A DNA stretch of 64,000 nucleotides, taken from the NCBI GenBank assembly GCA_036971615.1, contig JAYKKR010000051.1, positions 1 through 64,000 of the forward strand. The letters run 5' to 3'. The stretch is from Amyloporia xantha (taxonomy: Eukaryota > Basidiomycota > Agaricomycetes > Polyporales > Adustoporiaceae). This document shows positions 1,927 to 61,069 of this stretch, one piece after another. A program made the translations under genes and the position numbers. A model generated the notes under the pieces. The model was not told the DNA's origin, made no database searches, and saw nothing but the letters and a program-made list of their open reading frames with translations. Every line of letters starts with the position of its first letter. The first letter of the stretch is position 1.

Positions 1927-2229
1927 GACAAACTTTTACATCTTACATCTCTCTTGTCCCTCTCTCCCATCCTGCATCCCTCGACCATGGTCGCAGGATG
2001 AGGGATGAGTGCCCCGGCGACCCTCATCTAGATGGTCCGAAGGATGGGATGCAGGACACAGCCTATCTACATCTTTTTTTAAGATGGGAAGGATGTTAAA
2101 GACGATGACGATGATATAATAACCCCCTACGTATAAAAGAATGAATAGTTTACCAATAAAAACTATTTTTGTAGATATCTTGCCCTCAACCCTCTCGACC
2201 ATGGTCGAGAGGGTCGAGAGATGGAGATA
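1927..2229. repeat. GC-hairpin spacer after nad5
   Basis: No gene seen. Holds nested hairpins with tips CCATGG (near 1984 and 2200) and CTAGATGG (near 2029), separated by an AT-rich stretch at 2085-2190. Equivalent to 13184-13483 and 48096-48394. Confidence 0.85.
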
Positions 2230-2345
2230 TCTGATTAATTTTTTTCAATTTTTTAATATAAAAATTTGAATTACAATCGTAATCCTATCACCAATATTCG
2301 GCTTCGCCGTATTTAATAAAACAACAACCCGTCTACGTTAATTTA
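2230..2345 (+). promoter_or_regulatory. Duplicated leader A, upstream of orf340
   Basis: 116 bases nearly identical (one substitution seen) to the leader of nad4 at 3873-3988; it ends on the A of the orf340 start codon. Contains a small hairpin with CGGCTTCGCCG. Probably the 5' untranslated region or promoter of nad4 copied in front of orf340. Confidence 0.85.
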
Positions 2346-3367
2346 TGGAAATCAACTTAATGATATTAAATCTCTTATTATATACCTCAGTATTATCATT
2401 AGTAATTATGTATACTTCTAAATTAGGTCTTTTAGGGTTAAAAGCTAAAAACCTATGTCAGACTAGTACTATAATTGAAATATTAATATTAATCCTCTTA
2501 ATTTTTACTGGTATCATGTTTATTCTTAGTTTAATCCAGCTATTATTTCTTCATTCTAATATTAAACCTGAATGGTTATATGTCAATGATAGTAATAATA
2601 ATCAGGACCCTGTTAGATGGTGGCCTTCTGGTACTCCTCCCTCCTTCTCAACCATGGTTGCAGGAGGGGGTATTATAGGAGGTGCTATAGGTGTATATAG
2701 ATTAGTACCTGGAACACCCAAAATTAAAGCAATAGCTGCTTTAACTTCGTTAGCGTGCAAAGCACGACCTTCTGCTGTATGGTTTCATGCTGTAAATCCA
2801 AATGGCTTTAACAGATTCGTGCGGAGCACGTCAATGATGGAGTACAAAATAACTGGTTCATGGCCAGCTATTGTATCTGCTGTTATACATGATAATCGAT
2901 TAAACCCAGTATTTGACAGACTTAGCGATGAGGCTACTAGAACAGGCGACGGTTACTACTTTCAAGACTTATCTTTAGATGGTATTTTCAATTTCTTTAT
3001 TCAATTCTTTAAACCAGTACACGTACACGGATATTTGGATGATTTAATAGGTCAACAAATATTTATCTACTCACTTATGTTATTAATAGTAGTTAGTTTA
3101 ATCATTTTATTTAGTTTATATACGCTTATAAATATAATGCTACATAATAAAGAATTCATTATAAACAAATTTAATACTAATAATAAATTTATTGCGTTTT
3201 TTATTAACTACCAAATTACCCTAAGTAAAATTAGTCTTTTTCTATTACCATTAATAATAGTGTTTGGCCTAATAGAGCTTTTTGTAGGTTTACATTATCT
3301 TATCACCCATCCTCTACCATTAGAAGAGTTACCAATTGATTTGCATACATACTTCCCTAAGAAATAA
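2345..3367 (+). CDS. orf340, hydrophobic protein of the two-helix family, copy 1
   Basis: Not assigned to a known function. The 340-residue product has membrane segments near residues 5-25 and 43-67. A soluble middle follows, with a glycine-rich hydrophobic stretch (GGGIIGGAIGVYR, near 105-117). Two C-terminal membrane helices (near 240-266 and 292-316) flank a loop rich in Lys and Asn. The C-terminal pair resembles orf327, orf120, orf227, orf198 and orf106. A GC hairpin near 2638-2668 and two short palindromes (2753-2766, 2818-2831) are read through in frame. It lies between nad5 and nad4, behind a copy of the nad4 leader. The start directly abuts that leader. Confidence 0.8.
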   Translation: MEINLMILNLLLYTSVLSLVIMYTSKLGLLGLKAKNLCQTSTIIEILILILLIFTGIMFILSLIQLLFLHSNIKPEWLYVNDSNNNQDPVRWWPSGTPPSFSTMVAGGGIIGGAIGVYRLVPGTPKIKAIAALTSLACKARPSAVWFHAVNPNGFNRFVRSTSMMEYKITGSWPAIVSAVIHDNRLNPVFDRLSDEATRTGDGYYFQDLSLDGIFNFFIQFFKPVHVHGYLDDLIGQQIFIYSLMLLIVVSLIILFSLYTLINIMLHNKEFIINKFNTNNKFIAFFINYQITLSKISLFLLPLIIVFGLIELFVGLHYLITHPLPLEELPIDLHTYFPKK

Positions 3368-3872
3368 AGAATAATACCAATCACCCCCTCGCATCCCTCT
3401 CAACCCTATCTCGACCCTCATGCGAAGCATGGCATTATTTAGATGAGAGCAGGAGGGTCGAGGGAGTGCCGGTCGCAAAGGGGAATTAAAATATCTAAAA
3501 AAAAGGATTTAAAGGATCGATGGGCTTACACGACCTTACTCCTTTATTAGATAAAAGGCTTATCCTTAGCCTCTCGCTCTCTCTCCGGCACCCTCAACCC
3601 TCTCTCATCCCTCTCATCCCATCCTTCGGCATCCGAAGGATGGGATGGGTTGCCGGATGCCCCGGCACTCATTGATTGAGTGAGGGATGCACCGGCGCGC
3701 GAGGGTTCCCGGTTGCCGGTCGACTCTTCTTTATATTTACTTACGTGCTTCGCACGCTTTATTTTAAATAAAAAAACCGTCCTCCGAACGCTATAAAAGA
3801 ATCGTTTACTAAGCTAAATTATTTTGTAGAATATACAGTCAAGCCTCTCTGGTCATATGACCGATCTACCAA
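3368..3872. repeat. GC-hairpin spacer between orf340 and nad4
   Basis: No gene seen. Contains hairpins tipped by CATGCGAAGCATGG (3420), a nested CATCCTTCGG/CCGAAGGATG element (3627-3655), a palindrome around CATTGATTGAG (3668) and the short palindrome GTGCTTCGCAC (3746). Confidence 0.8.
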
Positions 3873-3988
3873 TCTGATTAATTTTTTTCAATTTTTTAAT
3901 ATAAAAATTTGAATTACAATCGTAATCCTATCATCAATATTCGGCTTCGCCGTATTTAATAAAACAACAACCCGTCTACGTTAATTTA
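3873..3988 (+). promoter_or_regulatory. Leader B, upstream of nad4
   Basis: Sequence directly before the nad4 ATG (3991), shared with leader A. Since nad4 is the conserved gene, this is probably the original copy. Confidence 0.8.
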
Positions 3989-3990
3989 AA

Positions 3991-5437
3991 ATGATTCAAT
4001 TACTTCTAATAGTTCCAATTATAGGTTCTTTATTAATATTACCTATACAAGACACAATAAAAAATGAAAATAAAATGAAAAATATAGCTCTTTCAACGTC
4101 TCTAATTAATTTACTAATCTCTATCTTATTATGGGTTGAATTTGATTCAAGTACTAGTGATTATCAATTTATATATGAATTCAATAAATTAAGTTTTTGT
4201 CACTTTAATATAGGTATAGATGGGATTTCACTATACTATGTCTTACTAACAACATTTATAACACCAATAGCAATACTTTCTAATTATAAAAATATATATA
4301 AAAATATAAAATATTTCCTTATCTCCTTTTTAATCCTAGAAACACTACAAATAGCAGTTTTTGTAGTTTTAGATTTATTTCTTTTCTATATTTTTTTCGA
4401 AAGTGTATTACCCGTATTATTTATAATTATAGTAGTCTACGGTTCAGGAGAAAATAGAATTAGATCAGCTTTATTATTTTTTATATACTTTAGCTGGATC
4501 TTTATTTATGCTTTTAGCTATTCTGCATATTTATAGTAATGTAGGTTCTACAGACTTTCAATTAATCTCTTTATCTGATATAAGCTTAGATACTCAAAAA
4601 ATATTATGGTTAGCATTCTTCTTAGCTTTTGCAGTAAAAACTCCGCTATGGCCTTTAACTGGTTGGCTTTATAGAGCTCATGCTGATAGTCCATTAGCTG
4701 GTTCAATTCTACTAGCTGGAACTATTCTAAAATTTGCTACTTATGGTTATATTAGAGTATTGATTAACTTTTTACCTGATGCTTCTAATTATTTTGGTCC
4801 ATTAATACAAACTATTGCAATTATAACTTTAATTTATTCATCATTAGCAACTGTAATACAACAAGATACTAAATCTCTTATTGCTTATTCAAGTATTGCA
4901 CACATGAGTGTAGTTATATTAGGTCTATTTTCTAATACAATACAAGGGATAGAAGGAGCTATTCTACTTTCTTTAGGTCATGGTTTTGTATCACCTGCCT
5001 TATTTATTTGTGTGGGTGGTGTTATATATGAAAGAACTGGTACTAGAATTATTCAATATATTAGAGGTTTAGTTACTTATATGCCTGTATTTACTGTCTT
5101 ATTCTTTATATTTACTTTATGTAATACCGGTATACCTTTAAGTTTAAATTTCCTAGGTGAACAATTATCTTTAATTGGTATATGGGAAAAAAGTCCAATT
5201 ATATCTGCTCTAGGTGCTACTGGTATTGTTTTATCTGCATGTTATTCTATTTATTTATATAATAGAATTTCTTATGGGGTATATTCTCCTCACCTTAAAC
5301 CTTATATAGATATAACTAGACAAGAATTTAACCTTTTAATCACTTTACTTATACCTACTATAGTCTTAGGTATTTTACCTAATGTTATATTATATACTAT
5401 TCACTTACCGGTTTCTACTTTATTATATTCTGCGTAA
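3991..5437 (+). pseudogene. nad4: nad4, copy 1, frameshifted in a T run
   Basis: NADH dehydrogenase subunit 4, complex I inner-membrane subunit. Open from 3991 to 4536 and again from 4508 to 5437. The T run near 4477-4482 has 6 bases here and 8 in the intact copy (9975-11423), so the frame shifts. All conserved parts are present (DGISLYYVLLTTF, VKTPLWPLTGWLYRAHADSP). Copy 3 has the same 6-base run. Sequencing or assembly error is the likely cause. Confidence 0.93.
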
Positions 5438-9974: not shown

Positions 9975-11423
9975 TTACGCAGAATATAATAAAGTAGAAA
10001 CCGGTAAGTGAATAGTATATAATATAACATTAGGTAAAATACCTAAGACTATAGTAGGTATAAGTAAAGTGATTAAAAGGTTAAATTCTTGTCTAGTTAT
10101 ATCTATATAAGGTTTAAGGTGAGGAGAATATACCCCATAAGAAATTCTATTATATAAATAAATAGAATAACATGCAGATAAAACAATACCAGTAGCACCT
10201 AGAGCAGATATAATTGGACTTTTTTCCCATATACCAATTAAAGATAATTGTTCACCTAGGAAATTTAAACTTAAAGGTATACCGGTATTACATAAAGTAA
10301 ATATAAAGAATAAGACAGTAAATACAGGCATATAAGTAACTAAACCTCTAATATATTGAATAATTCTAGTACCAGTTCTTTCATATATAACACCACCCAC
10401 ACAAATAAATAAGGCAGGTGATACAAAACCATGACCTAAAGAAAGTAGAATAGCTCCTTCTATCCCTTGTATTGTATTAGAAAATAGACCTAATATAACT
10501 ACACTCATGTGTGCAATACTTGAATAAGCAATAAGAGATTTAGTATCTTGTTGTATTACAGTTGCTAATGATGAATAAATTAAAGTTATAATTGCAATAG
10601 TTTGTATTAATGGACCAAAATAATTAGAAGCATCAGGTAAAAAGTTAATCAATACTCTAATATAACCATAAGTAGCAAATTTTAGAATAGTTCCAGCTAG
10701 TAGAATTGAACCAGCTAATGGACTATCAGCATGAGCTCTATAAAGCCAACCAGTTAAAGGCCATAGCGGAGTTTTTACTGCAAAAGCTAAGAAGAATGCT
10801 AACCATAATATTTTTTGAGTATCTAAGCTTATATCAGATAAAGAGATTAATTGAAAGTCTGTAGAACCTACATTACTATAAATATGCAGAATAGCTAAAA
10901 GCATAAATAAAGATCCAGCTAAAGTATATAAAAAAAATAATAAAGCTGATCTAATTCTATTTTCTCCTGAACCGTAGACTACTATAATTATAAATAATAC
11001 GGGTAATACACTTTCGAAAAAAATATAGAAAAGAAATAAATCTAAAACTACAAAAACTGCTATTTGTAGTGTTTCTAGGATTAAAAAGGAGATAAGGAAA
11101 TATTTTATATTTTTATATATATTTTTATAATTAGAAAGTATTGCTATTGGTGTTATAAATGTTGTTAGTAAGACATAGTATAGTGAAATCCCATCTATAC
11201 CTATATTAAAGTGACAAAAACTTAATTTATTGAATTCATATATAAATTGATAATCACTAGTACTTGAATCAAATTCAACCCATAATAAGATAGAGATTAG
11301 TAAATTAATTAGAGACGTTGAAAGAGCTATATTTTTCATTTTATTTTCATTTTTTATTGTGTCTTGTATAGGTAATATTAATAAAGAACCTATAATTGGA
11401 ACTATTAGAAGTAATTGAATCAT
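9975..11423 (-). CDS. nad4: nad4, NADH dehydrogenase subunit 4 (intact copy)
   Basis: Complex I proton-pumping subunit in the inner membrane. 482 residues, the usual fungal length, open throughout. Conserved features are DGISLYYVLLTTF (about 77-89), VKTPLWPLTGWLYRAHADSP and a glycine-rich helix around SLGHGFVSPALF. The T run that breaks the frame in copies 1 and 3 has 8 bases here. Start at the ATG two bases after leader B; stop TAA. Followed on the same strand by the eight-tRNA cluster, so probably co-transcribed and released by tRNA processing. Confidence 0.97.
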   Translation of the reverse strand: MIQLLLIVPIIGSLLILPIQDTIKNENKMKNIALSTSLINLLISILLWVEFDSSTSDYQFIYEFNKLSFCHFNIGIDGISLYYVLLTTFITPIAILSNYKNIYKNIKYFLISFLILETLQIAVFVVLDLFLFYIFFESVLPVLFIIIVVYGSGENRIRSALLFFLYTLAGSLFMLLAILHIYSNVGSTDFQLISLSDISLDTQKILWLAFFLAFAVKTPLWPLTGWLYRAHADSPLAGSILLAGTILKFATYGYIRVLINFLPDASNYFGPLIQTIAIITLIYSSLATVIQQDTKSLIAYSSIAHMSVVILGLFSNTIQGIEGAILLSLGHGFVSPALFICVGGVIYERTGTRIIQYIRGLVTYMPVFTVLFFIFTLCNTGIPLSLNFLGEQLSLIGIWEKSPIISALGATGIVLSACYSIYLYNRISYGVYSPHLKPYIDITRQEFNLLITLLIPTIVLGILPNVILYTIHLPVSTLLYSA

Positions 11424-11425
11424 TT

Positions 11426-11541
11426 TAAATTAACGTAGACGGGTTGTTGTTTTATTAAATACGGCGAAGCCGAATATTGATGATAGGATTACGATTGTAA
11501 TTCAAATTTTTATATTAAAAAATTGAAAAAAATTAATCAGA
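11426..11541 (-). promoter_or_regulatory. Leader B of nad4, copy 2
   Basis: Reverse complement of 3873-3988; ends directly before the nad4 start. Confidence 0.8.
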
Positions 11542-12045
11542 TTGGTAGATCGGTCATATGACCAGAGAGGCTTGACTGTATATTCTACAAAATAATTTAG
11601 CTTAGTAAACGATTCTTTTATAGCGTTCGGAGGACGGTTTTTTATTTAAAATAAAGCGTGCGAAGCACGTAAGTAAATATAAAGAAGAGTCGACCGGCAA
11701 CCGGGAACCCTCGCGCGCCGGTGCATCCCTCACTCAATCAATGAGTGCCGGGGCATCCGGCAACCCATCCCATCCTTCGGATGCCGAAGGATGGGATGAG
11801 AAGGATGAGAGAGGGTTGAGGGTGCCGGAGAGAGAGCGAGAGGCTAAGGATAAGCCTTTTATCTAATAAAGGAGTAAGGTCGTGTAAGCCCATCGATCCT
11901 TTAAATCCTTTTTTTTAGATATTTTAATTCCCCTTTGCGACCGGCACTCCCTCGACCCTCCTGCTCTCATCTAAATAATGCCATGCTTCGCATGAGGGTC
12001 GAGATAGGGTTGAGAGGGATGCGAGGGGGTGATTGGTATTATTCT
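11542..12045. repeat. GC-hairpin spacer, copy 2
   Basis: Reverse complement of 3368-3872 with small base changes inside the hairpins. No gene seen. Confidence 0.8.
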
Positions 12046-13068
12046 TTATTTCTTAGGGAAGTATGTATGCAAATCAATTGGTAACTCTTCTAATGGTAGA
12101 GGATGGGTGATAAGATAATGTAAACCTACAAAAAGCTCTATTAGGCCAAACACTATTATTAATGGTAATAGAAAAAGACTAATTTTACTTAGGGTAATTT
12201 GGTAGTTAATAAAAAACGCAATAAATTTATTATTAGTATTAAATTTGTTTATAATGAATTCTTTATTATGTAGCATTATATTTATAAGCGTATATAAACT
12301 AAATAAAATGATTAAACTAACTACTATTAATAACATAAGTGAGTAGATAAATATTTGTTGACCTATTAAATCATCCAAATATCCGTGTACGTGTACTGGT
12401 TTAAAGAATTGAATAAAGAAATTGAAAATACCATCTAAAGATAAGTCTTGAAAGTAGTAACCGTCGCCTGTTCTAGTAGCCTCATCGCTAAGTCTGTCAA
12501 ATACTGGGTTTAATCGATTATCATGTATAACAGCAGATACAATAGCTGGCCATGAACCAGTTATTTTGTACTCCATCATTGACGTGCTCCGCACGAATCT
12601 GTTAAAGCCATTTGGATTTACAGCATGAAACCATACAGCAGAAGGTCGTGCTTTGCACGCTAACGAAGTTAAAGCAGCTATTGCTTTAATTTTGGGTGTT
12701 CCAGGTACTAATCTATATACACCTATAGCACCTCCTATAATACCCCCTCCTGCAACCATGGTTGAGAAGGAGGGAGGAGTACCAGAAGGCCACCATCTAA
12801 CAGGGTCCTGATTATTATTACTATCATTGACATATAACCATTCAGGTTTAATATTAGAATGAAGAAATAATAGCTGGATTAAACTAAGAATAAACATGAT
12901 ACCAGTAAAAATTAAGAGGATTAATATTAATATTTCAATTATAGTACTAGTCTGACATAGGTTTTTAGCTTTTAACCCTAAAAGACCTAATTTAGAAGTA
13001 TACATAATTACTAATGATAATACTGAGGTATATAATAAGAGATTTAATATCATTAAGTTGATTTCCAT
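12046..13068 (-). CDS. orf340, copy 2 (intact)
   Basis: Same 340-residue product as at 2345-3367, function unknown. Four predicted membrane segments, a glycine-rich middle and the C-terminal two-helix module shared with the other unknown ORFs. The in-frame GC hairpin (about 12744-12774) encodes the residues SFSTMVAGGG. Confidence 0.8.
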   Translation of the reverse strand: MEINLMILNLLLYTSVLSLVIMYTSKLGLLGLKAKNLCQTSTIIEILILILLIFTGIMFILSLIQLLFLHSNIKPEWLYVNDSNNNQDPVRWWPSGTPPSFSTMVAGGGIIGGAIGVYRLVPGTPKIKAIAALTSLACKARPSAVWFHAVNPNGFNRFVRSTSMMEYKITGSWPAIVSAVIHDNRLNPVFDRLSDEATRTGDGYYFQDLSLDGIFNFFIQFFKPVHVHGYLDDLIGQQIFIYSLMLLIVVSLIILFSLYTLINIMLHNKEFIINKFNTNNKFIAFFINYQITLSKISLFLLPLIIVFGLIELFVGLHYLITHPLPLEELPIDLHTYFPKK

Positions 13069-17881: not shown

Positions 17882-17884
17882 TAT

Positions 17885-29029: not shown

Positions 29030-29440
29030 TACTAGTATACGTAAATTAATAGTTACAGTGTTAGACTTAGCGTGCTTCGCTCATCCTACTTCCCTTTGTG
29101 TCGATGCCTCTCAACCTGCGACCGGCAACCGGCATCCCTTGTCCATGGACAAGGGATGCCGGTTGAAGAGTTGCCCGGCAACCGGCATCCGGCAACCATG
29201 GTGCATCCATGGATGAGAGGGTTGAGGCTTGAGGCTAGAGGAAGGGCCGGTGGCCGATGGCGCACAGCATGAAGACGTAGACGAAAAATAAAAAAAATAA
29301 ATAAACCTAATTAAATATAGTGCCCCATCCTTCATCCTCTAGCAGATGGTGATGCAGATGGATCACGGCACGAACTAATTAATGATTAAAAATAGAATAA
29401 TGACGAAAAAATAAAATAAAAATAAATATAATTAAATAAA
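29030..29440. repeat. GC-hairpin spacer before cob
   Basis: No gene seen. Holds the perfect stem CATCCCTTGTCC/GGACAAGGGATG (29133-29160), CCATGGTG stems (29190-29220), then an AT-rich leader (29380-29440) that starts with ATGATTAAAAATAGAATA, also found before orf106. Confidence 0.7.
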
Positions 29441-43502: not shown

Positions 43503-43690
43503 CGATATAAAAGAATAACATCACGGTCTGCTCATTGAGCCCATGACCAACCATTTAAGCAGCCAAAACGAGTTGCGCACAGCTCGCTTCGTAATAACTT
43601 TGGTGATACATAACGTGCCCATGCTCTCACCTGCAGCGCATCCCTCATCTAGATGAGGGATGCAAAGGATGCGGATGAGCGCACAGCACG
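43503..43690 (+). promoter_or_regulatory. Shared leader E2 before orf120, copy 3
   Basis: Inverted copy of 17885-18070; ends just before the orf120 ATG. Confidence 0.78.
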
Positions 43691-43697
43691 GAAAATA

Positions 43698-44057
43698 ATG
43701 AAATTTCTCATGCAAAATAATATTAATGACTTTTTAAATTTTATTGGACTAAATGTAAATATAAATGATACGGCTCTGCCGCCTATAGTTTTGGCTATAG
43801 GTTGTTTAATTTTTAATTGTATTATTTTATTTAGTGTAATAAATATCTCCATATATCTACTATCATTATATATAGTAAATAATAATAAAATTATTGATAA
43901 AATATCTAATAGCGTGCTTCGCGCGTATATGACTAAATTAGTTAAATTTTATAATAGAACTAGAGTAAGTTTTATTATATTAGAACTTATATTTCTATTT
44001 AGTAGCATAGGATATATGTTAAAGGCTAGTATAAAAATTATAATTCATTTTAGTTAA
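43698..44057 (+). CDS. orf120, copy 3
   Basis: Same small two-helix protein as 17519-17881, one Phe shorter (PPIVLAIG) because a T run has 4 instead of 7 bases; frame kept. Function unknown. Confidence 0.72.
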   Translation: MKFLMQNNINDFLNFIGLNVNINDTALPPIVLAIGCLIFNCIILFSVINISIYLLSLYIVNNNKIIDKISNSVLRAYMTKLVKFYNRTRVSFIILELIFLFSSIGYMLKASIKIIIHFS

Positions 44058-44128: not shown

Positions 44129-44245
44129 TGTAGAAGACTCAATCGTGCAAAGCACGTCCGATAATCAATTATCTTTTTGTATTTACTGTTTCATGGCTCT
44201 GTTTATTTGTAATAAACTTTACAATTAAGTATTCACTATCGACGA
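44129..44245 (+). pseudogene. orf327-like remnant, copy 3
   Basis: Inverted copy of 17336-17450: a VEDSIVQSTSDNQ-like piece joined to the orf327 C-terminus by an internal deletion. Confidence 0.75.
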
Positions 44246-44505
44246 AGTCGTATCGTCATAATCCGATCGTCCACCCCCTACTGCATCCCTCTCTAGCAAC
44301 GTGCTCATGCTCGTGCGAAGCCATCCTTTGGATGAGGGATGCTCTCCGGCCAACCTCAACCAGTCTGCATCCCATCCTTCGGCATCCGAAGGATGGGATG
44401 GGAACCACGTTGCTAGAGAGGCGTGCGAAGCACGGATGAGAGAAGTGTATTAATAAGGAAAAAAAGATTAGATAAGGAGGAGAGCCAACGTAATAACAGA
44501 ATAAG
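44246..44505. repeat. GC-hairpin spacer, copy 3
   Basis: Inverted copy of 17069-17335, with GG-to-AA changes at 44351 and 44399. No gene seen. Confidence 0.7.
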
Positions 44506-44506
44506 A

Positions 44507-44690
44507 CTAAAAGAATAGCATCACGGTCTCTTTTTTATGAGAGCCACCATTTAAGCAGCCAAAACGAGTTGCGCACAGCTCGCTTCGTAATAACTTTGGT
44601 GATACATAACGTGCCCATGCTCTCACGTGCAGCGCATCCCTCATCTAGATGAGGGATGCAAAGGATGCGGATGAGCGCACAGCACGAAAA
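44507..44690 (+). promoter_or_regulatory. Shared leader E1 before cox3, copy 3
   Basis: Inverted copy of 16887-17068. Confidence 0.78.
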
Positions 44691-44705
44691 ATACGAATAC
44701 AAAAA

Positions 44706-53089: not shown

Positions 53090-54073
53090 TTATGACGATA
53101 ATATTAGATGAAGTGAATATTTAATTGTAAAATTTATTACAAATAAGCAGACCCATGAAACACTAAATACAAAAATATTAGATTTATACCATATATCGAT
53201 GTATCTATTAATTAGATACTCAATTTTAGGTTTAAATTTGTTATTAGGAATGTATTTACTATAATTAAATCCTGAATGTCTAATTAAGGTTGATATGAAA
53301 CAATTTAAAATTAAAATTAAACATGCTAACTCTAATTGATTTATTGTAAATAGCTCACTTAAGAGATTAAAGGGATAATGCTGTAATATTAATTGATTAT
53401 CGGACGTGCTTTGCACGATTGAGTCTTCTACAGCTGCAGGTTCCATAACATAGTTTGAACCTTCACCTGGTTTACCACCACCTTTACCTTTACCTTTATC
53501 AATAATATCGGAGATTTTAGATAAACTAAGAGCTACGCCACCACCTACACCAACAGCCACTAATTTACCAGCTGCGGGTAGGCTTTTAGCAGCTTCCAGA
53601 CCTATTTTCATGCCCATAGCAGTTAAAGCGGTATCCTTTGCAGAATTTGGAACATTTATATTTAAAATATTATTAACAGTAGTAGAACTTGTTGCACTAT
53701 GCGTGCTATCATTTGTAACCGTGGTTGATGTTGATGATGCAGCAGGAGTATCCGTGTTTGGCACGTCAGTATTGTTAGGTTCATTTAAATATAAAATATG
53801 ATCGTTAAGCATTGATGGATGCAGTAGGCCTAATATGAATGAAACTAATAATATTAAATAAACTAAGATGCGAAACCACTTATGATTTATTATAAAATTA
53901 CAGTACATTTTAATATTTTTCCCGAGCAAATCGCTTTCTATTAAAAAGGCTATTATAAAGGTTTTAATAAACATTGGTTGGGAGACCAAAGAAGACGTTA
54001 TTATTAATATAGGATTTAAAATTATTAACATACAAGTAAGTATGGTATCATTAAAAAGTTGAATAATTATCAT
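53090..54073 (-). CDS. orf327, complete copy, membrane protein of unknown function
   Basis: Only complete copy. 327 residues: membrane helices near 20-45 and 66-85; a Ser/Thr/Asn-rich stretch (about 105-140, TSTTVTNDSTHSATSSTTV); a Gly/Ala-rich hydrophobic segment (AAGKLVAVGVGGGVALSLS, about 167-185) followed by a Lys/Gly-rich linker (KGKGKGGGKPGEG); then two C-terminal helices flanking NNKFKPKIEYLINRYI. The C-terminal module and the glycine-rich middle parallel orf340. The palindrome GTGCTTTGCAC is read in frame (53405-53418). A partial copy of the cox3 leader lies about 90 bases upstream of its start. Not a recognised family. Confidence 0.78.
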   Translation of the reverse strand: MIIIQLFNDTILTCMLIILNPILIITSSLVSQPMFIKTFIIAFLIESDLLGKNIKMYCNFIINHKWFRILVYLILLVSFILGLLHPSMLNDHILYLNEPNNTDVPNTDTPAASSTSTTVTNDSTHSATSSTTVNNILNINVPNSAKDTALTAMGMKIGLEAAKSLPAAGKLVAVGVGGGVALSLSKISDIIDKGKGKGGGKPGEGSNYVMEPAAVEDSIVQSTSDNQLILQHYPFNLLSELFTINQLELACLILILNCFISTLIRHSGFNYSKYIPNNKFKPKIEYLINRYIDIWYKSNIFVFSVSWVCLFVINFTIKYSLHLILSS

Positions 54074-54161
54074 TATTTAGTATACATGTGTAAATATACG
54101 TGCTGCCTTCTGCATCCCATCCTTCGGCATCCGAAGGATGAGGATGACTGCAGAGCATGTA

Positions 54162-54266
54162 TGTTATATATCACCAAAGTTATTACGAAGCGAGCTGTGC
54201 GCAACTCGTTTTGGCTGCTTAAATGGCTGGTCTCATAAAAAAGAGACCGAGATGCTATTCTTTTAT
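54162..54266 (-). promoter_or_regulatory. Shared leader E3, upstream of orf327
   Basis: Copy of the cox3/orf120 leader core: ATCACCAAAGTTATTACGAA, the CGAG/CTCG stem-loop and the GAGACC region. Same orientation relative to the gene as E1 and E2. Two substitutions noted (GTTATATATC; GAGATGC). Confidence 0.8.
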
Positions 54267-54382: not shown

Positions 54383-54868
54383 TCTATAAGCAGTCGAAGT
54401 TTAATCGACCCTCCTGCTCTCATCTAGATGGTGCCATCCGAAGGATGGCCGGTCGCAAAATGACGGCGTACCTTCTCTATCATCATTCACCAGGATGCAT
54501 ACGCCTGCAAGCAGGGATAAGCAATCCAGGTAAGCGAATAGATTTTATGACCCTTATTAGGAATTGAGCTCAACAGGAAAAACACACATCAATCAAAACC
54601 CCTATTTTAGAAAAAACACCATTTTGGGAGCATCGGGGTAGAAACAGCAAAATAAAAGGAACGATGACAATATAGATATAACATCAAATGAATTTCAAAG
54701 GATTGACATCCACGCTCGCCTGTTGCGTTATACATAGCGGCTTACGCCTAGCCATCTTCATTTGAAGGTGGATGTCAATCTATAAGCAGTCGAAGTTTAA
54801 TCGACCCTCAACCCATCCTTCGGATGCCGAAGGATGGGTTGCCGGTCGCAAAATGACGGCGTACCTTT
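54383..54868 (+). repeat. Mosaic of rnl fragments
   Basis: 54383-54474 and 54778-54868 each carry CTATAAGCAGTCGAA and AAATGACGGCGTACCTT from rnl domain II (40278-40325) with the hairpin tip between replaced by different GC hairpins. 54662-54700 matches the rnl 5' region (39821-39860, GATGACAATATAGAT). 54480-54655 shows no recognised gene. Confidence 0.78.
54702..54779. mobile_element. 78-bp element with 12-bp perfect inverted ends
   Basis: ATTGACATCCAC at 54702-54713 is the reverse complement of GTGGATGTCAAT at 54768-54779. It lies exactly between an rnl 5'-end fragment and an rnl domain II fragment. Could be a miniature transposable element, or simply a stem-loop; no second copy was seen. 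Confidence 0.5.
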
Positions 54869-54950: not shown

Positions 54951-55095
54951 AATAACAATAAAATATCGTCGAGAGCACGATATTTAACACGTAAAATAAA
55001 ACGTATGTATATTATTCACGTGTATTGTTAAGTTCGAATGTTATGCAAAGTAAAAAAATATATATCATAAAATTTATATAAATATAAATTTTAAA
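54951..55095 (+). promoter_or_regulatory. Duplicated rps3 leader, upstream of orf227
   Basis: Matches 60714-60845 before rps3 (shared runs include AAAACGTATGTATATTATTC and ATCATAAAATTTATATAAAT). Differs by a 15-base insert (about 54965-54980) and a few substitutions. Confidence 0.82.
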
Positions 55096-55115
55096 ATAAA
55101 ACAAAAAAAAAATAA

Positions 55116-55797
55116 ATGAAAAAAAATAATAAAACAATAAACCAAAGAATTTTCTATGGTATAAAATCTGGTTGGGATTTACCTACCTTCCCTAATCATA
55201 TAATAATGAGATATAAAAATATTTATGTAAGAATATTCAAAATGATAGGTGGATTAAGTGTATTTATTATGGTTAGTGGTATAGGGAAACAATTAAATAA
55301 TATAGACGTGCTATGCACGACTGTTTTTATATTATCTATCTTGTATATATTATATATTATCATATTTTATTCAATAAAACAATGGTTTTATAATTTATTT
55401 AAAGGTAATTTTTTAGTTAGCGTAGATCCTTCTCCAAAATTAGATGATCATGATATAAACAAAAGTAGTATCATTTCATTTGATTTTGACTTACAAACTT
55501 TTTAGATTCTTTAAGCCAAGAGGAATTATTAGCTTTAGGTAGTTTATTATTTAATAGTTTAGTATTAAGTTATGTCGTAAGTATAATTTTAGTATTATAT
55601 GGTGAATACTTAATTAAACGATTTGATTTAGAGAATAAGTACCCTAAAATTGCTAAATTTATAGAAATACGAAGAAAATTACAAAATTATTACCTAAAAC
55701 TTTGCTTTGCTTGGATATTCTTTGCTTTATTACCACAGTTTATTATTGATATATTAATATTATACCCTAAACTATTAGACGTGCTATGCTCGACTTA
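55116..55797 (+). pseudogene. orf227, two-helix family, one-base frameshift
   Basis: Function unknown. Open from 55116 to 55505, closed by TAG in a T run of 5. The paralogue orf198 has TTCTTAG at this place, and one more T restores the frame to 55797, giving about 226 residues. N-terminal basic part (MKKNNKTINQRIFYGIKSGW), two helices (about 45-65, 70-95), then a segment shared with orf198 (NKSSIISFDFDLQTF) and the C-terminal module (YGEYLIKRFDLENKYPK, then a basic RRKLQNYYLKL and a last helix). The short palindromes GTGCTATGCAC (55308) and GTGCTATGC (55781) lie in the frame. Follows a copy of the rps3 leader. Confidence 0.75.
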
Positions 55798-56032
55798 GTT
55801 ATTATTTTACTTAACCATGGTTGAGACCATGGCTACAAGCTGGGTCGGGTGGGCATAATAATAATATAGTTTAATAAATGTTACTACCCCTTAAGACCTA
55901 CCCATCCTGCATCCTCTCTAGCAACGTGTCCCTCAACCCATCCTTCGGACCATCTAGATGAGGGTCGCAGGATGCAGGATGGAGAGGGATGAGAGGCACG
56001 AAAGGTAAAAGAAGAATTAATTTTGTTGAGTA
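55798..56032. repeat. GC-hairpin spacer
   Basis: No gene seen; a CCATGG palindrome (55817) and a CTAGATGA-tipped long stem (55905-55990). Confidence 0.65.
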
Positions 56033-56629
56033 ATGATCTTTCTTAGTATCTTAATTTTAATAGTGGCAATTGCCCTACCTTCATTCAATAAAAATATTTC
56101 ATCCATATTATATCTTAGAATATTTTCTATAATTTTTATTTATGCCGGAGCATTAGCTTTTAATGCTTTTTATATTCAGTCAATTGGATCAGGCATTGGT
56201 ATTTATAGTATGGCAATGTCTTGTCTATGGACACAGCCTATATCTTATAATCATATAATTAATTATGCAGAAGAGATAAAAAATATTATAAACAAAAGTA
56301 GTATCATTTCATTTGATTTTGACTTACAAACTTTCTTAGATTCCTTAAGACAAGAGGAATTATTAGCTTTTAGTGGTTTATTATTAAATAGTTTAGTGCT
56401 AAGCTATGTCGTAAGTATAATTTTAGTGTTATATGGTGAATACTTAATTAAACGATTCGATTTAGAAAATAAATACCCTAAGTTAGCTAAGTATATACAA
56501 ATACGAAGAAAATTACAAAATTATTATTTAAAACTTTGTTTTGTTTGGATCTTTATAGGTATTCTACCGCAAATTTTTGTGTATGCACATATAATATTAC
56601 CTAAATTAATTGAACTATTTTTTAATTAA
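56033..56629 (+). CDS. orf198, chimera: Nad2-like N-terminus fused to two-helix module
   Basis: 198 residues. Residues 1 to about 63 (MIFLSILILIVAIALPSF, then YLRIFSIIFIYAGALAFNAF and SIGSGIGIYS) look like the N-terminus of fungal Nad2. From about residue 86 (NKSSIISFDFDLQTFLDSL) it is a near copy of the orf227 C-terminal half. The native nad2 5' end lies right of the window, so the first half cannot be compared directly. Possible origin: insertion of the module into a duplicated nad2 5' end. Function unknown. Confidence 0.72.
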   Translation: MIFLSILILIVAIALPSFNKNISSILYLRIFSIIFIYAGALAFNAFYIQSIGSGIGIYSMAMSCLWTQPISYNHIINYAEEIKNIINKSSIISFDFDLQTFLDSLRQEELLAFSGLLLNSLVLSYVVSIILVLYGEYLIKRFDLENKYPKLAKYIQIRRKLQNYYLKLCFVWIFIGILPQIFVYAHIILPKLIELFFN

Positions 56630-57050
56630 AATGGTTCCACCCCATACGCCCTCCTTGCATCCCTCTCCGGCACCTCACCCCTGCTCTGCAGGGATGGCGA
56701 AGGTTGAGAGCGCCGGTTGAGATGGATGAGAAGGAGGCTTCGGAGGACACAACCAGATTTTTTAAATTTTGGGGTCGCATTGCACTTATTTAAAAGAAGT
56801 ATATAGACGACTTTTTAGTTACAGTGGTATAGTCGGCTTCAACCGTCTTATTAATTAAAAAGAGTCTTACATAATTTAATATAATAATTCTTTTGCTTTG
56901 GACCCGTGGACCATCGGGCACTCATCCCTCACCCCTGCAACATCGACGATGAGGCAGGGATGGCAGGATGGGAGCGATGAGGCACGGGTCCACCTTTATG
57001 ATTAAAAATAGAATAGGGCGTTAACAAAACAACAATCAACAAACAAAACA
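56630..57050. other. Spacer: GC hairpins, AT-rich part, cob-like leader piece
   Basis: No gene recognised. GC hairpins at 56640-56755 and 56905-56990. 57000-57016 (ATGATTAAAAATAGAATA) also begins the cob leader at 29383. Confidence 0.55.
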
Positions 57051-57371
57051 ATGAAAAATTTTATAGATGGTAATAATACCTTAGATATTATAACTAATAG
57101 CATAAAGGACTTAAATCTTGAACAAATAGGAGCTATAGTTCACTTAAGTGGTTCTATTCTAATACTTCATTGTTTAATGACTATTATTGCTACATTATTT
57201 GCAGATAAAATTATAAGATATTACGGATTGGAAGAGAGATTTCCAAAATTAGCTATTTTTATTCGGGTGAGACAAAAAATACTCTATGTCAATTTGTTCA
57301 TTAATTTTTTTATTATAATCTTAGTCTTATTCGTAATCATCTATTTAAATTTATTAGTCTTATTTTCCTAA
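57051..57371 (+). CDS. orf106, minimal two-helix protein
   Basis: 106 residues, function unknown. Two hydrophobic helices (about 32-55 and 80-105) flank KIIRYYGLEERFPKLAIFIRVRQKI, close in pattern to KRFDLENKYPKLAKYIQIRRKL of orf198. It is essentially the C-terminal module on its own. Start ATG follows an AAC-rich stretch. Confidence 0.72.
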   Translation: MKNFIDGNNTLDIITNSIKDLNLEQIGAIVHLSGSILILHCLMTIIATLFADKIIRYYGLEERFPKLAIFIRVRQKILYVNLFINFFIIILVLFVIIYLNLLVLFS

Positions 57372-57570: not shown

Positions 57571-60264
57571 CTAAAACAGTTTTTCTGGAGTCAAGGTGTC
57601 AAGATGGTAATCCTCACGCATCTTCCTTTTTAGTGCACAGTATAAATTCTTAAACCATTTTAGATGACTTAATCATCCTTCGGATGGGTATCCTTCGCTA
57701 AAAGGGTTTTCATATCACCAACGTGCGAAGCACGAGTTTTAGGATCCTTAAATCCTTTTACTTTACAGATGTATTTATCATCTGTGGTAATACCTGCATA
57801 TATTTTAGGCCCTAGGAATACTGCTTCTTTAAAGACATGTTCAAGTTTAAATTTACCCAATTCGACATCAGAAACTAAGGAGTCGTCTAATGGCTTATCA
57901 ATATAGATACTATCTGTGTCTGTGTAATATAATTTATATTGACTGCTTGGATATTTAAATTGAGACATGTGAACTCTGGCATATGAGGTGACTGCGGATG
58001 CAATTCCAATTGATGTCTTAGATTCTTTATGTAATAAAGAAGGATCAAGATAATTAACGAATAATGAAGTATCCGTACCTTCTCGCGCGGGAGACGTATC
58101 AATTAAATCGATATATTCTAAAATTTCGAATTTTTCACTTAATCTTAAGAATTCCTCTTTATTAACAAAGGCTTGGACTGAACGAATAGGTGCCATGGCG
58201 AATCGGCCATAGCACGAATTCATAACGTGCTTTGCACGAGTGATCATGTTCATCGGATCAGATTTAGGATATGAACATCTTATTTTATAAAGATCGTTTA
58301 TAAAACTCGAAAATATGTCTTCTTTTCTGAAAATATATCCACGCGAAGTTACTATATTGTAATCCTTTAAAGAATTATAATATTCAGGTGAGTTAATTTT
58401 CATTCTGAATGCCCCATTTGGACTTATAGTACGCATTCCACCAGCAGCGCCCGTGATATTATGGTGGATTTGAAGATAAGGTGAATATAAGTTTTTCTTA
58501 GTTTGCACTTCTACATCCCCAATCCAATAATAATCATCCTGCGATAGAATAGTAGGATCACCTTCAAACTGCAGAATTTGACCTACTGGGAATTTATTGT
58601 TTGCCATTACAAATGGATATAATGAGTTAACATCATAACAATAAATGTTTCTCGACGATGAGACGGGTTTATACATTTCTGTGGCACCACCGGTGAAACT
58701 TTCTTTAATAAAGTCATACACTTCTCCTTGAGTAATAGGTATAGTATGATCCTTTAAGTAAGAACTACGATAAATAGCAAAAGCTAATGACGGTGTAGTG
58801 GGATATTTAGTTATGTCTAAACCCCACTTATCTTTAACTAAGCTTCGGAATTTAACTAAAACCTGGTGTAGGCTTATCGAGTCATGTTCACAATATTGCT
58901 GAACTTTCTGTTTCCACAGATTAAAATCTTCCACTAATTCAATGTCTTTAGAATAATGTTTAAAGTCAGACATGGCGTACTCTGGATGTTCGCAGGCTCC
59001 TTTTCCGGTTAATACTGGTTCAATGTCTTTAGATGTTTCTACATTAAATTGCAATGCTAGTTTAGATAGAGAAAATGGTAAGATTAAAAAAGAATCACGA
59101 ATGTCAATTGATATATTGTCTTTTCGGGAAGCGATATTTATATTCCATGCGAAGCATGGTATCATCTTTTTTAAGGATTGTAATTTTATAACCCTGACTA
59201 TGCAGGACCGCTAGATATCTGAAAATGAATACGATATCGAATCCAGATAGATTATGGGCATAGCAGACAAAGTTTTTATATTTACGTCTTAATAGTTGAT
59301 CGAATAAGGATTGAGGCGAATCAGTGAACCAAGAATAAGTACGTTTGCCGTCATACATTGAATAAAGATAAGGTTTATGTTGACCGTCAATAAGAAGAGT
59401 TTCAATATCGAAAGTAATAATCTTATTAGCAGAAGGAACGTTTTTACATTTTAGAGTTTTAAGGAATTTAGTTTCTAGTTCTTTAATTGATAGAAGTATA
59501 GCCCCATTGCGAATGTAATATGTCATAGAGTTAATGACTCGTTTAAAAAAGGCATCAACATCGGTCCGTGATAAAAGCACGTCTGTAAATGTAATAATCA
59601 GTTTTTTATTTTTAAAAACTTTAATTTCCGTTTCCGTTTCGGAAAGATGAGTAATAACATAAATATAATTATCACTTGCGATCACTGAAACTTTATCAGT
59701 TTCTGACATTATAACACCCCAACTAGAATAGTTATTATTTGACGGAAGTTTATATTTACCAAACGGTGTTAATGATATTGGTTTCGTATTCTGCATGTCT
59801 AGTTCTGTCCACTTATCAATATAATATTGTTCACGATCAAGATCAATCATGAAATAATTAAAGGTTACTTTCGTTATCGCTCTTGCTGTATAATCATTGG
59901 ATTTAATCGAGATTAAGTTTTTACATAGAGTAATGTACTCATTTAAAGAAGCATGTTTAACTATGAGTCCTTTATGTAGTGTTCTTATTGAATCATCATC
60001 ATAGTGTAGTCTTAGTAATATAAAGAATTTTCTGTCGCCTGCAGTGCTAATAATACGATTGAAAAAAGCTTTGATTATTAAAGATAATCCCGAATCGGGT
60101 GTGAAACTAAGTATCTCTGGAGTGTCAATATCACCAATAAATTCATTGAATCCTGATTTGTTTATTTTTATAATTGGAGTAATCATCAACCAGGATGAGG
60201 TCGAGCTTTTGCACAGTATGTTAGTATCCACAGCAGTGAATGCTACAAGAATCGCGCAGACCAT
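57571..60264 (-). pseudogene. dpo: dpo, type-B (plasmid-type) DNA polymerase, frame broken twice
   Basis: Family B protein-primed DNA polymerase as carried by linear mitochondrial plasmids. The N-terminal 386 codons (60264 down to 59104) hold exonuclease motif I (TFDIETLL) and motif II (CYAHNLSGFDIVF). The next frame (59165 down to 57669) holds polymerase motif A (YDVNSLYPFVM), motif B (KHVMNSCYG) and motif C (YYTDTDSIYI). The typical C-terminus (WFKNLYCALKRKM) is in a third frame and ends at 57571. The breaks lie beside palindromes: CCATGCGAAGCATGG (59146-59160) and CATCCTTCGGATGG (57674-57687). Either insertions inactivated the gene, or single-base errors occurred. The motif-B Lys is itself encoded in a palindrome (58228-58240). 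Opposite strand to orf106 and rps3. Confidence 0.88.
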
Positions 60265-60413
60265 GAAAAATAGGATTAAGTTTTTTCGATTTAAAACTAA
60301 CCCTATTAGACCGCTACGCGGGCGATAATAATCGCCCGAAGTGCGAAGTAGAGTATAATAATTAATTGTTTCATGTTTTTTATGTAATAAACACGTCCTT
60401 TGGGAACCGGTAA
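60265..60413 (-). pseudogene. nad4L-like 5' end joined to dpo
   Basis: On the minus strand 60413-60393 repeats the nad4L leader (ACCGGTTCCCAAAGGACGT), an ATG stands at 60374, and 60300-60265 reads in the dpo frame as LVLNRKNLILFF, resembling ILNRKNIILMI of nad4L. A GC palindrome (CGCGGGCGATAATAATCGCC, 60317-60336) interrupts between them and brings stops. The dpo frame therefore seems to have begun as a fusion to the nad4L N-terminus. Confidence 0.72.
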
Positions 60414-60477
60414 TGAATGAAATGTGTCAACCGGCGAAGCCGGCGCTGAGGTGTGTTAATGTATATAAAGGTGTGTC

Positions 60478-60549
60478 TAAGATTAGAAGGATTTGAACCT
60501 GCAACTCTAGTTTCGTAGTTCTAGTGTTATCCCCTTTAACTATAATCTA
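60478..60549 (-). tRNA. tRNA-like gene, anticodon uncertain (possibly Arg ACG)
   Basis: D-arm GTTA/TAAC, T-arm with loop TTCAAAT and acceptor TAGATTA/TAATCTT (first pair mismatched) are acceptable. The anticodon stem is only CTAG/CTAG with an enlarged loop AACTACGAAA, so the anticodon cannot be read safely; ACG after T33 is one choice. May be an altered or dead tRNA. Confidence 0.5.
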
Positions 60550-60713: not shown

Positions 60714-60845
60714 TTAACAATAAAATATCTATTTAACATGTAAAATAAAACGTATGTATATTATTCACGTGTATTGTTAAGTTCGGATGTTATGCAAAGT
60801 AAAATATATATATCATAAAATTTATATAAATAAATAAATAAATTT
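60714..60845 (+). promoter_or_regulatory. rps3 upstream sequence, duplicated before orf227
   Basis: AT-rich leader shared with 54951-55095. Between it and the rps3 start (61070) lies unique AT-rich DNA with one GC hairpin (60885-60910). Confidence 0.75.
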
Positions 60846-61069
60846 TATTAAAAAAAATCAAATCATGCACGTACAAAATATCCGTGCCTCATCGTCGATG
60901 TTGCACGCATCACGAGATGGTATAGAAGAACACGACAAAGATAAAAAAGTTTTATATTACGTATAAGTGAATTAACAAAATATAGTCTGCTAATCTCAAG
61001 CCTTGATAAAAAAACAATCTTACAAACGAAAAAGAAAAATCTCAAGACGCATCAATTCTCGCGCGCGGG

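Follow-up and report, generated by a model that had tools for sequence, protein, structure and literature searches.

Copies of resident-gene 5′ ends upstream of accessory membrane-protein ORFs in the mitochondrial genome of Amyloporia xantha

Results

Accessory ORFs and the leaders that precede them

The stretch analysed here (the window) comprises 64,000 nt of Amyloporia xantha DNA and is part of a concatemeric contig representing a circular-mapping Agaricomycete mitogenome with a unit of ~44.8 kb (44,772 nt). The concatemer is chimeric, with mismatches of ~0.1-1.2% between contig copies, and majority polishing of the unit across those copies yielded zero changes. Eleven accessory ORFs were examined, and seven of these – orf340, orf135, orf327, orf227, orf183, orf198 and orf158 – are preceded by strong, in-sense and in-register copies of the 5′ ends of standard genes, from five donors (nad4, cox3, rps3, nad2 and cob; Table 1). 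Weak pieces only are present at dpo (nad4L) and orf106 (cob); no leader copy was found for orf173 in the leader comparison among the 11 ORFs, and orf251 has a tRNA-like sequence upstream and an nad2 match of only 42 nt, to an internal piece.

In three ORFs the copy ends 0, 3 or 7 nt upstream of the ATG, and the block at orf135 stops just short of the native ATG. The leader-ORF junctions of orf340, orf135, orf327, orf227 and orf198 were each found in 4-6 contig copies, and those of orf183 and orf158 – both outside the window – in one each. The frames of several accessory ORFs, orf340, orf227, orf158 and dpo among them, are broken in some contig copies, so that some may be dead or misassembled; that of orf340 is open in three of its six copies and split into 110 and 249 codons in the other three.

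Table 1. Coordinates of accessory ORFs, leader copies and donor leaders within the window
Feature	Position	Strand	Evidence and remarks
nad4 leader copy before orf340	2229..2345	+	117 nt, 99% to nad4 leader; ends on first base of orf340 ATG
orf340, membrane-protein ORF	2345..3367	+	further window copies 12046-13068 (-) and, split, 48508-49529 (+)
native nad4 leader (donor)	3872..3988	+	also 50030-50146 (+), 11426-11542 (-)
nad4	3991..5437	+	frame broken here; intact 482-aa copy 9975-11423 (-)
native cob leader (donor for orf158)	29284..29384	+	101 nt, 95%
cox3 leader copy and GC-rich repeat at orf135	43508..43697 (approximate, from offsets -145..+44)	+	190 nt, 92%; reverse copy includes 17964-18066 (-)
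orf135	43653..44057	+	other copy 17519-17926 (-)
orf327-type deletion remnant, between orf135 and cox3	44129..44261	+	other copy 17315-17447 (-)
native cox3 leader (donor)	44508..44692	+	leader alignments
orf327, membrane-protein ORF	53090..54073	-	no Pfam match
cox3 leader copy at orf327	54133..54265	-	135 nt, 87% to cox3; 108 nt, 87% to orf135 leader
rnl 5′-end copy (-43..+29)	54629..54701	+	73 nt, 81%; ~0.4 kb upstream of orf227
rps3 leader copy at orf227	54981..55109	+	129 nt, 88%; ends 7 nt before ATG
orf227	55116..55783	+	frame broken here; intact 227-aa protein (P0001) in outside collection
nad2 5′ copy	55976..56209	+	234 nt, 94%; ~33 nt leader and ~59 codons near-identical, remainder aligns less well
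orf198, nad2 5′ end plus conserved C-terminal two-helix domain	56033..56629	+	family alignment
short cob-leader-like piece at orf106	56995..57015 (computed from offset)	+	21 nt, 95%, E 0.007
orf106, short orf198-family member	57051..57371	+	family comparison
plasmid-type dpo (family B DNA polymerase) with an interrupted frame	57669..60504	-	PF03175, E 9e-64 on 57669-59162
nad4L 5′-end-like blocks at dpo start	60271..60419 (approximate)	-	27 nt 96% and 42 nt 81%, colinear
native rps3 leader (donor)	60730..60857	+	leader alignments

Leader copies at individual ORFs

A sequence-only reading of this DNA had placed copies of the nad4 leader at orf340, the cox3 leader at orf327 and at an ORF that it called orf120, the rps3 leader at orf227 and nad2-like codons in orf198, and all five hold up on alignment (Table 1). 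Its orf120 is our orf135, which has 135 codons as an ORF and 120 counted from the native ATG (MKFLMQNN). Its nad4L-like 5′ end at dpo and cob-like leader at orf106 are more modest: the two colinear blocks at dpo are there but short, and the orf106 piece lies in a register nearly equal to that of its donor (-56 at orf106, -61 at cob) but is a weak match. Outside the window, orf183 carries an rps3 leader copy of 184 nt at 91%, and orf158 a cob leader copy of 174 nt at 82%, with 101 nt at 95%.

The same reading had at least three ORFs lying upstream of their donor in the same orientation. This is directly so for orf340 and nad4 and for orf135 and cox3, which adjoin each other, but orf227 is ~5.7 kb upstream of rps3 and other genes intervene. 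orf327 and its cox3 leader sit far from cox3, and a remnant of orf327 (43 nt identical to it and 91 nt at 86%) sits before cox3; this leader-ORF unit appears to have moved. We also sought terminal inverted repeats around the gene cluster with dpo, and most inverted repeats in the contig reflect either the way it is concatenated or its palindromic repeats. Matches to orf198 and dpo elsewhere in the assembly all fall, among those listed, in the mitochondrial contig.

Self-comparison of the mitogenome

Comparison of the 44,772-nt unit with itself at E<=1e-9 gave 107 pairs, of which 93 have a GC content of at least 0.48. Each of these 93 carries a core word – GGATG, CATCC or CCATGG – typical of the dispersed GC-rich repeats; the word check covered every GC-rich pair, and the best 14 together with all those longer than 80 nt were also viewed individually. 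The cox3/orf135 pair falls in this GC-rich set because its block includes a dispersed GC-rich repeat, and since one leader listing was restricted to GC <=0.45, this pair is taken from other comparisons. A further leader comparison used an assumed cox1 start and omitted atp8; the whole-unit self-comparison is independent of both.

The 14 AT-rich pairs consist of eight leader copies (host-ORF or ORF-ORF), three ORF paralogues, two matches of the orf327 remnant, and one copy of the rnl 5′ end. Apart from the GC-rich repeats, the only copies of standard genes at E<=1e-9 are thus 5′ ends borne by ORFs and the single rnl 5′ end: there are no AT-rich internal or 3′ copies beyond the 5′ codons of nad2, no AT-rich leader common to two standard protein genes, and no strong 5′ copies of protein genes in other intergenic DNA, all seven lying in sense before ORF starts. 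Standard genes also match one another briefly and weakly in a few AT-rich places (nad4/rps3 over 27 nt, cob/rps3 over 40 nt and atp9/cox2 over 32 nt, with E from 3e-5 to 7e-4); these matches are counted as low-complexity chance. The probability that a random segment has its 3′ end within 60 nt of any of the 15 core starts (two of them approximate), in sense, is 0.0197; together with the leader copies among the AT-rich pairs, this indicates leader sharing beyond chance, as the sequence-only reading supposed.

An old body and a young 5′ end in orf198

The ~33 nt immediately upstream of the orf198 ATG are identical to the nad2 leader, and the first 59 codons of nad2 and orf198 differ by one synonymous and one nonsynonymous change, with a dS of 0.025. 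The C-terminal domains of orf198 and orf227 – the only pair testable – have a dS of 0.587 and a dN/dS of 0.23, consistent for this one pair with maintenance by selection. By these values the body shared by orf198 and orf227 is old and constrained, and the nad2 piece on orf198 is young. A 121-aa protein of Taiwanofungus camphoratus (P0005) matches the C-terminal domain of orf198 and is without nad2.

Protein families and their homologues

The ORFs had been taken for one unknown family forming one insertion system, and neither proposition is supported. orf198, orf227, orf106 and orf183 form one family, and orf340 belongs to a second with its own homologues (68 among the listed proteins at E<=1e-3, itself included); orf327, which has no Pfam match, and orf135 show no convincing relation to either. 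No LAGLIDADG or GIY-YIG Pfam domain was found in the accessory ORFs scanned or in the 45 and 52 members of the family alignments, and no endonuclease or integrase domain in the ORFs scanned; there is therefore no pointer to insertion machinery. Three listed proteins (P0081, P0096 and P0097), outside the domain rescan, carry the source label 'LAGLIDADG endonuclease' and have no precomputed Pfam domain.

Searches against Pfam, PHROG (for the orf340 family) and solved structures gave no convincing relative, only scattered weak matches such as BrkB at 1e-5 in one of 52 orf340-type proteins and PDB coiled-coil chains at E >=0.01. The AlphaFold models of orf227 and orf340 are helical (pLDDT 75 and 74), and neither has a Foldseek match in the PDB at E<=0.001. 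A C-terminal pair of helices is present in both large families. When folded, the leaders of orf340, nad4, rps3 and orf227 gave z values between -0.3 and -0.8, with no sign of an unusual or a conserved RNA structure, and a search with the family alignment for relatives' DNA in collections of viral contigs and genome contigs found none.

An in-frame host N-terminus begins nine of the 201 listed homologous proteins (P0002, P0003, P0041, P0110, P0136, P0155, P0164, P0174 and P0182), with nad2 residues in seven, nad4 in one (from T. camphoratus) and nad6 in one. Both large ORF families contain such captures in other fungi, and there are fewer than nine independent events, because P0002 and P0003, and likewise P0155 and P0164, are close relatives. 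Family matches to nad4 residues 391-469 fail a threshold of 1e-5 and were set aside as composition-driven similarity of membrane helices.

Discussion

We consider it reasonably probable that the accessory genes of this mitogenome exchange their 5′ ends for host leaders again and again, retaining those that would give expression. The copies are of 5′ ends, lie in sense and in register and recur in homologous proteins. Because of the first three of these features, and because no AT-rich leader is common to the standard protein genes, the borrowing of host 5′ signals – as the sequence-only reading suggested – is the best reading, and the copied front ends are probably there so that the ORFs are expressed. 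The extra ORFs would be accessory genes for membrane proteins, long present in Agaricomycete mitochondria and of a kind linked in the literature to mitochondrial plasmids, and copied leaders of resident genes would have taken the place of their 5′ ends on repeated occasions. We infer that copying involves recombination – ectopic recombination, gene conversion within mtDNA, or recombination with cDNA – with the join either in the immediate region of the ORF's native ATG or a few dozen codons into the donor gene, and that leaders without codons also passed from host to ORF. A captured leader would supply what is needed for translation, and possibly for transcription too, and variants with a working host leader would then be retained. 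Yeast mitochondrial mRNAs are translated via gene-specific activators acting on the 5′ UTR (PMC3978653), and by analogy the leaders here may drive expression. Counting against capture, several ORF frames are broken in some contig copies, orf173 and orf251 are exceptions to the pattern, the four folded leaders are structurally unremarkable, the copies at orf327 and orf158 stop ~60 nt and ~50 nt short of the ATG, and the 99% identity of the nad4 and orf340 leaders could reflect a recent neutral duplication.

A bias towards 5′ ends could also be mechanistic and without function, if reverse transcription or recombination favours the 5′ ends of mRNAs and the harmless fragments persist. The rnl 5′ piece was copied too, with no known ORF reading from it, the cox3 copies at orf135 and orf327 have nearly the same 5′ boundary, and for the 5′ partial genes of Heterobasidion an origin as partial cDNA copies has been put forward by the authors with reference to earlier work (PMC10234125). 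We nonetheless regard this as unlikely: the strong protein-gene copies found at E<=1e-9 lie without exception in sense before an ORF start, four joins come no more than 7 nt from the native ATG of their ORF, and the rps3 copies begin at -186 at orf183 and -135 at orf227, which does not indicate a single fixed mRNA end. Leader sharing might instead be mainly a by-product of Campbell-type or tandem duplication, in which a leader-ORF circle or plasmid integrates by one crossover into a leader-ORF-leader-gene array and the remote cases are later rearranged. The tandem layouts at nad4 and cox3 are as expected from a single crossover, and the plasmid-type dpo and the orf327 remnant between orf135 and cox3 fit as well; but only two of the seven strong cases are directly tandem, the rest being remote or inverted, and the listed matches include no copies of orf198 or dpo outside the mitochondrial contig, making this origin improbable.

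Mobile ORFs of the Allomyces/Glomus kind, which invade genes and supply a substitute for the gene end, offer the same general picture of an ORF beside a duplicated gene end (PMC3630166). They are nevertheless a very unlikely source of these ORFs, since the known elements duplicate C-terminal (3′) ends and encode LAGLIDADG or GIY-YIG endonucleases, whereas 5′ ends are copied here and a scan of the ORFs finds no endonuclease domain. Finally, the chimeric concatemer, with its diverging copies, raises the question of an annotation or assembly artefact, and nad2 of Ganoderma can hold an intron at one position (PMC9394262), such that Ganoderma-type nad2 fusions could be intron-encoded ORFs fused to upstream exons. 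We give such explanations hardly any weight: five of the seven strong junctions recur across contig copies, an intact orf227 (P0001) is present in an outside collection, and the donor genes of the window are separate from the ORFs and located elsewhere. The nad4 fusion of T. camphoratus is likewise not intronic, because the introns described in that mitogenome are confined to cox1, cob, nad1 and rnl (PMC7536210).

Repeated 5′-end capture may extend further, and we propose tentatively, as a possibility short of a probability, that it is a general route by which accessory genes persist in Agaricomycete mitochondria, with at least two unrelated membrane-ORF families exchanging 5′ ends for available respiratory leaders and each ORF coming under the nuclear-encoded activator of its donor gene. 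If so, the captured leader would predict the nuclear factor controlling each ORF, and the ORFs would be natural counterparts of the yeast leader-swap reporter and of the ORFs of plant cytoplasmic male sterility (CMS). To our knowledge, the expression of foreign or orphan genes in mitochondria, where leaders may be gene-specific, is little understood outside yeast. Here one genome offers seven clear natural leader swaps onto ORFs, and because donor and recipient share the same mtDNA, the effect of a leader on expression is directly testable at both members of each pair. Capture would also offer a reason why accessory ORFs adjoin partial copies of core genes, and neither annotation as duplicated genes nor use as markers is advisable for fragments of nad2, cox3 or cob at the front of an ORF.

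The chimeric CMS ORFs of plant mitochondria are membrane-protein ORFs behind, or fused to, the 5′ regions of respiratory genes, and are associated with recombination among large repeats and with a sterility phenotype. orf198 and the nine listed capture-bearing proteins are similar in joining an unrelated membrane ORF to the N-terminus or the 5′ part of an OXPHOS gene, whereas sterility and large-repeat recombination are plant features. The interrupted family B DNA polymerase gene (PF03175) recalls an integrated linear mitochondrial plasmid. The mobile ORFs (mORFs) of Glomus and Allomyces combine a LAGLIDADG or GIY-YIG endonuclease with a 3′/C-terminal duplication (PMC3630166); like the present ORFs they accompany a partial duplicate of a resident mitochondrial gene, but they differ in the end copied and in the endonuclease, and no mORF-type 3′-end copies of standard protein genes are among the 14 AT-rich pairs.

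Closer parallels are found within the Agaricomycetes, where a study of mitogenomes reported putative plasmid genes, dpo and non-conserved ORFs, and noted that H. irregulare has an extra partial nad2 in a stretch that also contains rps3 and non-conserved ORFs (PMC4201751). The same class of accessory ORF lies beside dpo here, and leader copies are a feature that the study's passages on these genes do not describe. The sequence-only reading did not recognize the reuse of leaders as described, but a milder form was reported in 2023 in Heterobasidion annosum s.l., where cox2 and intergenic ORFs have 5′ ends of nad2, cox3 and atp8 upstream of them, the majority of these intergenic ORFs have transmembrane regions, and a regulatory role was proposed (PMC10234125); that a partial gene may drive expression of its ORF is thus a proposal there as here. 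Core-gene 5′ ends lie in sense upstream of intergenic ORFs in both systems. What sets A. xantha apart is that seven of 11 accessory ORFs strongly, and two weakly, and five donors are involved, and that the shared blocks are mostly untranslated leader, stopping at the ATG or close to it; orf198 moreover has 59 nad2 codons in frame, body and 5′ end contrast in dS in one pair, and proteins from two families show further in-frame captures.

Mitochondrial unit and contig structure

The assembly comprises 46.8 Mb in 60 contigs, and the 180.8 kb contig that is the source of the window (C47:1-64000) consists of one mitochondrial sequence repeated in forward and inverted orientation. A complete 44,772-nt unit, the start of which is found again past its end, carries nad1-6, nad4L, cob, cox1-3, atp6, atp8, atp9, rps3, rns, rnl and tRNAs; gene names were assigned by sequence resemblance, with Pfam used for rps3 and the plasmid-type family B DNA polymerase gene (dpo) only, and Rfam for the rRNAs. 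Copies within the contig diverge by ~0.1-1.2%, and several reading frames are intact in some and broken in others. C47:1-180800 is a chimeric concatemer of the ~44.8 kb unit. Its orientation changes near positions 7.7k, 30.8k, 70k and 152.7k, a structure that may be an assembly artefact or reflect real palindromic mtDNA forms; inversions are handled here as assembly structure.

Leader copies and their joins

For 25 genes and ORFs, we compared the region from -400 to +150 all against all; the upstream regions of 11 accessory ORFs – ORFs beyond the standard gene set – were compared with the whole unit. Strong leader copies are present at seven of the 11 (orf135 from the all-against-all comparison). 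The duplicated host leaders proposed from sequence alone are real, and stronger than had been claimed. The same search of the unit found no leader copy for orf173 or orf251; within orf251, 42 nt correspond to nad2 codons ~45-58 (90%), and a tRNA-like sequence (35.8 bits) abuts the orf251 ATG on the 5′ side. tRNA-derived leaders may be another route to a processed 5′ end.

Leader copies and other sequence features of the mitochondrial unit and window
Feature	Coordinates	Donor or related sequence	Extent and identity	Remarks
Complete unit	C47:69562-114333
orf340 leader		nad4	117 nt, 99%
orf135 leader		cox3	190 nt, 92%	All-against-all upstream comparison
orf327 leader		cox3	135 nt, 87%
orf227 leader		rps3	129 nt, 88%
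orf183 leader		rps3	184 nt, 91%	Same mitogenome, outside window
orf158 leader		cob	174 nt, 82%	Same mitogenome, outside window
orf198 5′ end		nad2	207 nt, 94% in compared stretch	234 nt in unit self-comparison
dpo		nad4L	27 + 42 nt	Weak; colinear
orf106		cob	21 nt, E 0.007	Weak; offset -56 vs -61
rnl 5′ end copy	54629-54701	rnl	-43 to +29, 81%	Intergenic, upstream of orf227
tRNA-like sequence	L001:7581-7654 (-)	dpo tRNA-like region	61 nt, 74%	Directly before orf251 ATG
tRNA-like sequence	60478-60549 (-)	orf251 tRNA-like region	61 nt, 74%	Upstream of dpo
GC-rich repeats (examples)	3615-3663, 11766-11814, 13398-13437			Palindromic
orf340 repeat insertion	12734-12773			Also matching place in 2345-3367

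Block ends were read from the alignments and the offsets of leader matches. In orf340 the last shared base is the A of the ATG (nad4 -3). The shared block stops at -3 in orf183 (rps3 -5) and at -7 in orf227 (rps3 -8), the rps3 offsets being counted from a start taken at unit position 34943, whose frame is open to its end in one of three copies. The cox3/orf135 block stops just 5′ of the native ATGs (MIINRN in cox3, MKFLMQNN in orf135) and contains a GC-rich repeat encoding MRDAKDADERTARKI, one of some such repeats translated as N-terminal extensions. The orf327 block stops 60 nt short of the annotated ATG, and the well-matched part at orf158 ~50 nt short. At orf198, ~33 nt of leader are common with nad2, and the copy extends to codon 59.

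Specificity of leader sharing

A comparison of the unit with itself (E<=1e-9, no preselection) yields 107 pairs, 93 with GC >=0.48; GC-rich repeat core words occur in all 93, and two or more in 90. Dispersed GC-rich repeats, found upstream of standard genes too, are the main confounder, and cox3/orf135 is counted among these pairs because its block includes one. Palindromic, double-hairpin-like repeats of this sort are numerous throughout, with cores such as CCATCCTTCGG...CCGAAGGATGG. The 14 AT-rich pairs comprise eight leader copies (host-ORF or ORF-ORF), three coding similarities between ORF paralogues, two with an orf327 remnant behind orf135, and one with the 5′ end of rnl (-43 to +29). 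The AT-rich set contains no internal or 3′ copies of standard protein genes, the nad2 5′ codons excepted, and no leader common to two standard protein genes; the upstream comparison gives short weak matches (27-40 nt) between standard genes. Within this genome, the self-comparison speaks against chance sharing and against generic leaders in front of all genes, the outcomes that would have refuted the sequence-only reading. With 15 core start positions considered, a segment end placed at random has a probability of 0.0197 of lying, in sense, <=60 nt from any of them.

ORF families

orf198, orf227, orf106 and orf183 form one family: each of the six pairs matches at E<=1e-10, and a two-helix domain is conserved at the C-terminus. 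Many relatives are ~300 aa long, their middle part resembling a coiled coil. A second family, with 68 matches listed, includes orf340, and orf173 pairs separately with orf251 (E 2e-12). Leader capture is therefore not one family's property: the sequence-only reading appears right in kind, host leaders having been borrowed as putative expression signals, and wrong in assigning this to one two-helix family. Searches of Pfam, PHROG (orf340 family) and PDB gave no relative that identifies a function. The structures modelled for orf227 and orf340 consist of helices, and a fold search with each gave nothing at E<=0.001. The orf340 frame is open in three of six contig copies. Its coding region has a palindromic-repeat insertion, which appears absent from the close relative P0135 (88% identical by BLASTP).

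Captures in other fungi

Three protein searches gave 201 listed proteins, including the window's own (120 of 155 listed for one search), with named homologues of the accessory ORFs in Taiwanofungus, Pappia, Ganoderma, Trametes and Lenzites among the matches listed; these place the source of the window in the Agaricomycetes, probably in the Polyporales. Eleven of the 201 match standard proteins at E<=1e-5, and nine of these begin at or near donor residue 1: the nad2 N-terminus in P0002, P0003, P0041 and P0110 (orf198 family) and in P0155, P0164 and P0174 (orf340 family), that of nad4 in P0136, and that of nad6 in P0182. Because P0002/P0003 and P0155/P0164 are alike, capture events number fewer than nine. 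The nad2 alignments end variously at ~59 (orf198), 80 to 92 (P0002, P0003, P0041, P0155, P0164, P0174) and 138 (P0110). The other two are P0201, a cox1 segment not from the donor start, and P0105, a dpo piece. In P0105, a homologue from outside the window, the DNA-polymerase-B fragment continues in frame into a C-terminal domain of the orf198 family, which ties that family to plasmid-type dpo genes.

P0136 (Taiwanofungus camphoratus) has ~20 nad4 residues followed by a body of the orf340 type, so that its donor is the one seen at orf340 in the window. An exon-intron fusion is ruled out there, since the available portion of the mitogenome report places introns in cox1, cob, nad1 and rnl only, leaving nad4 without one (PMC7536210). 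For P0164 (Ganoderma calidophilum) an intronic origin of the nad2 fusion is possible, given the one known nad2 intron position in Ganoderma in the sections consulted (PMC9394262). A second T. camphoratus protein, P0005, resembles orf198 in its C-terminal domain but lacks nad2 residues and begins with MEEIKN.

Age and movement

The orf198 and orf227 C-terminal domains differ by dS 0.587 and dN 0.134, a ratio of 0.23 indicating that the protein has been constrained since duplication, while dS between nad2 and orf198 over the first 59 codons is 0.025. For this single pair, the orf198 5′ end is much younger than its body, or kept similar to nad2 by gene conversion. The orf135-cox3 interval holds an orf327 remnant (43 nt, 100%; 91 nt, 86%; middle absent), and full orf327, with a cox3 leader, lies ~9 kb away on the opposite strand. 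The simplest history would be that an orf327-type gene once stood before cox3 and gained its leader, and that the leader-ORF unit was later copied elsewhere. Copying may have been by DNA recombination or via cDNA, with neither favoured.

Discussion

orf340 and orf135 lie inside a one-strand gene run (rnl, trnG, orf135, cox3, nad4L, nad5, orf340, nad4). Since mitochondrial genes are transcribed polycistronically in other fungi studied, as far as the available text of PMC8979003 extends, these two ORFs would have little need of a promoter copy and would gain most from a translation signal. In yeast, the 5′ UTRs on which activators act include those of cob, cox1, cox2 and cox3 (excerpts of PMC3978653). 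orf327, on the opposite strand, may require a promoter as well.

In the open-licence literature, as far as accessible, we found no description of an untranslated leader joined at the ATG, of an inventory with five donors and no internal or 3′ copies, of an age contrast between 5′ end and body, or of in-frame captures across Polyporales. The kind of phenomenon is already described: in Heterobasidion annosum s.l., the accessible parts of the account report 5′ ends of nad2, cox3, atp8 and two unknown ORFs upstream of cox2 and intergenic ORFs, for which its authors suggest promoter or translation signal roles and an origin by reverse transcription (PMC10234125). The leader copies of the accessory ORFs are a form of this little-studied phenomenon, with 5′ ends of core genes standing before intergenic ORFs in both systems.
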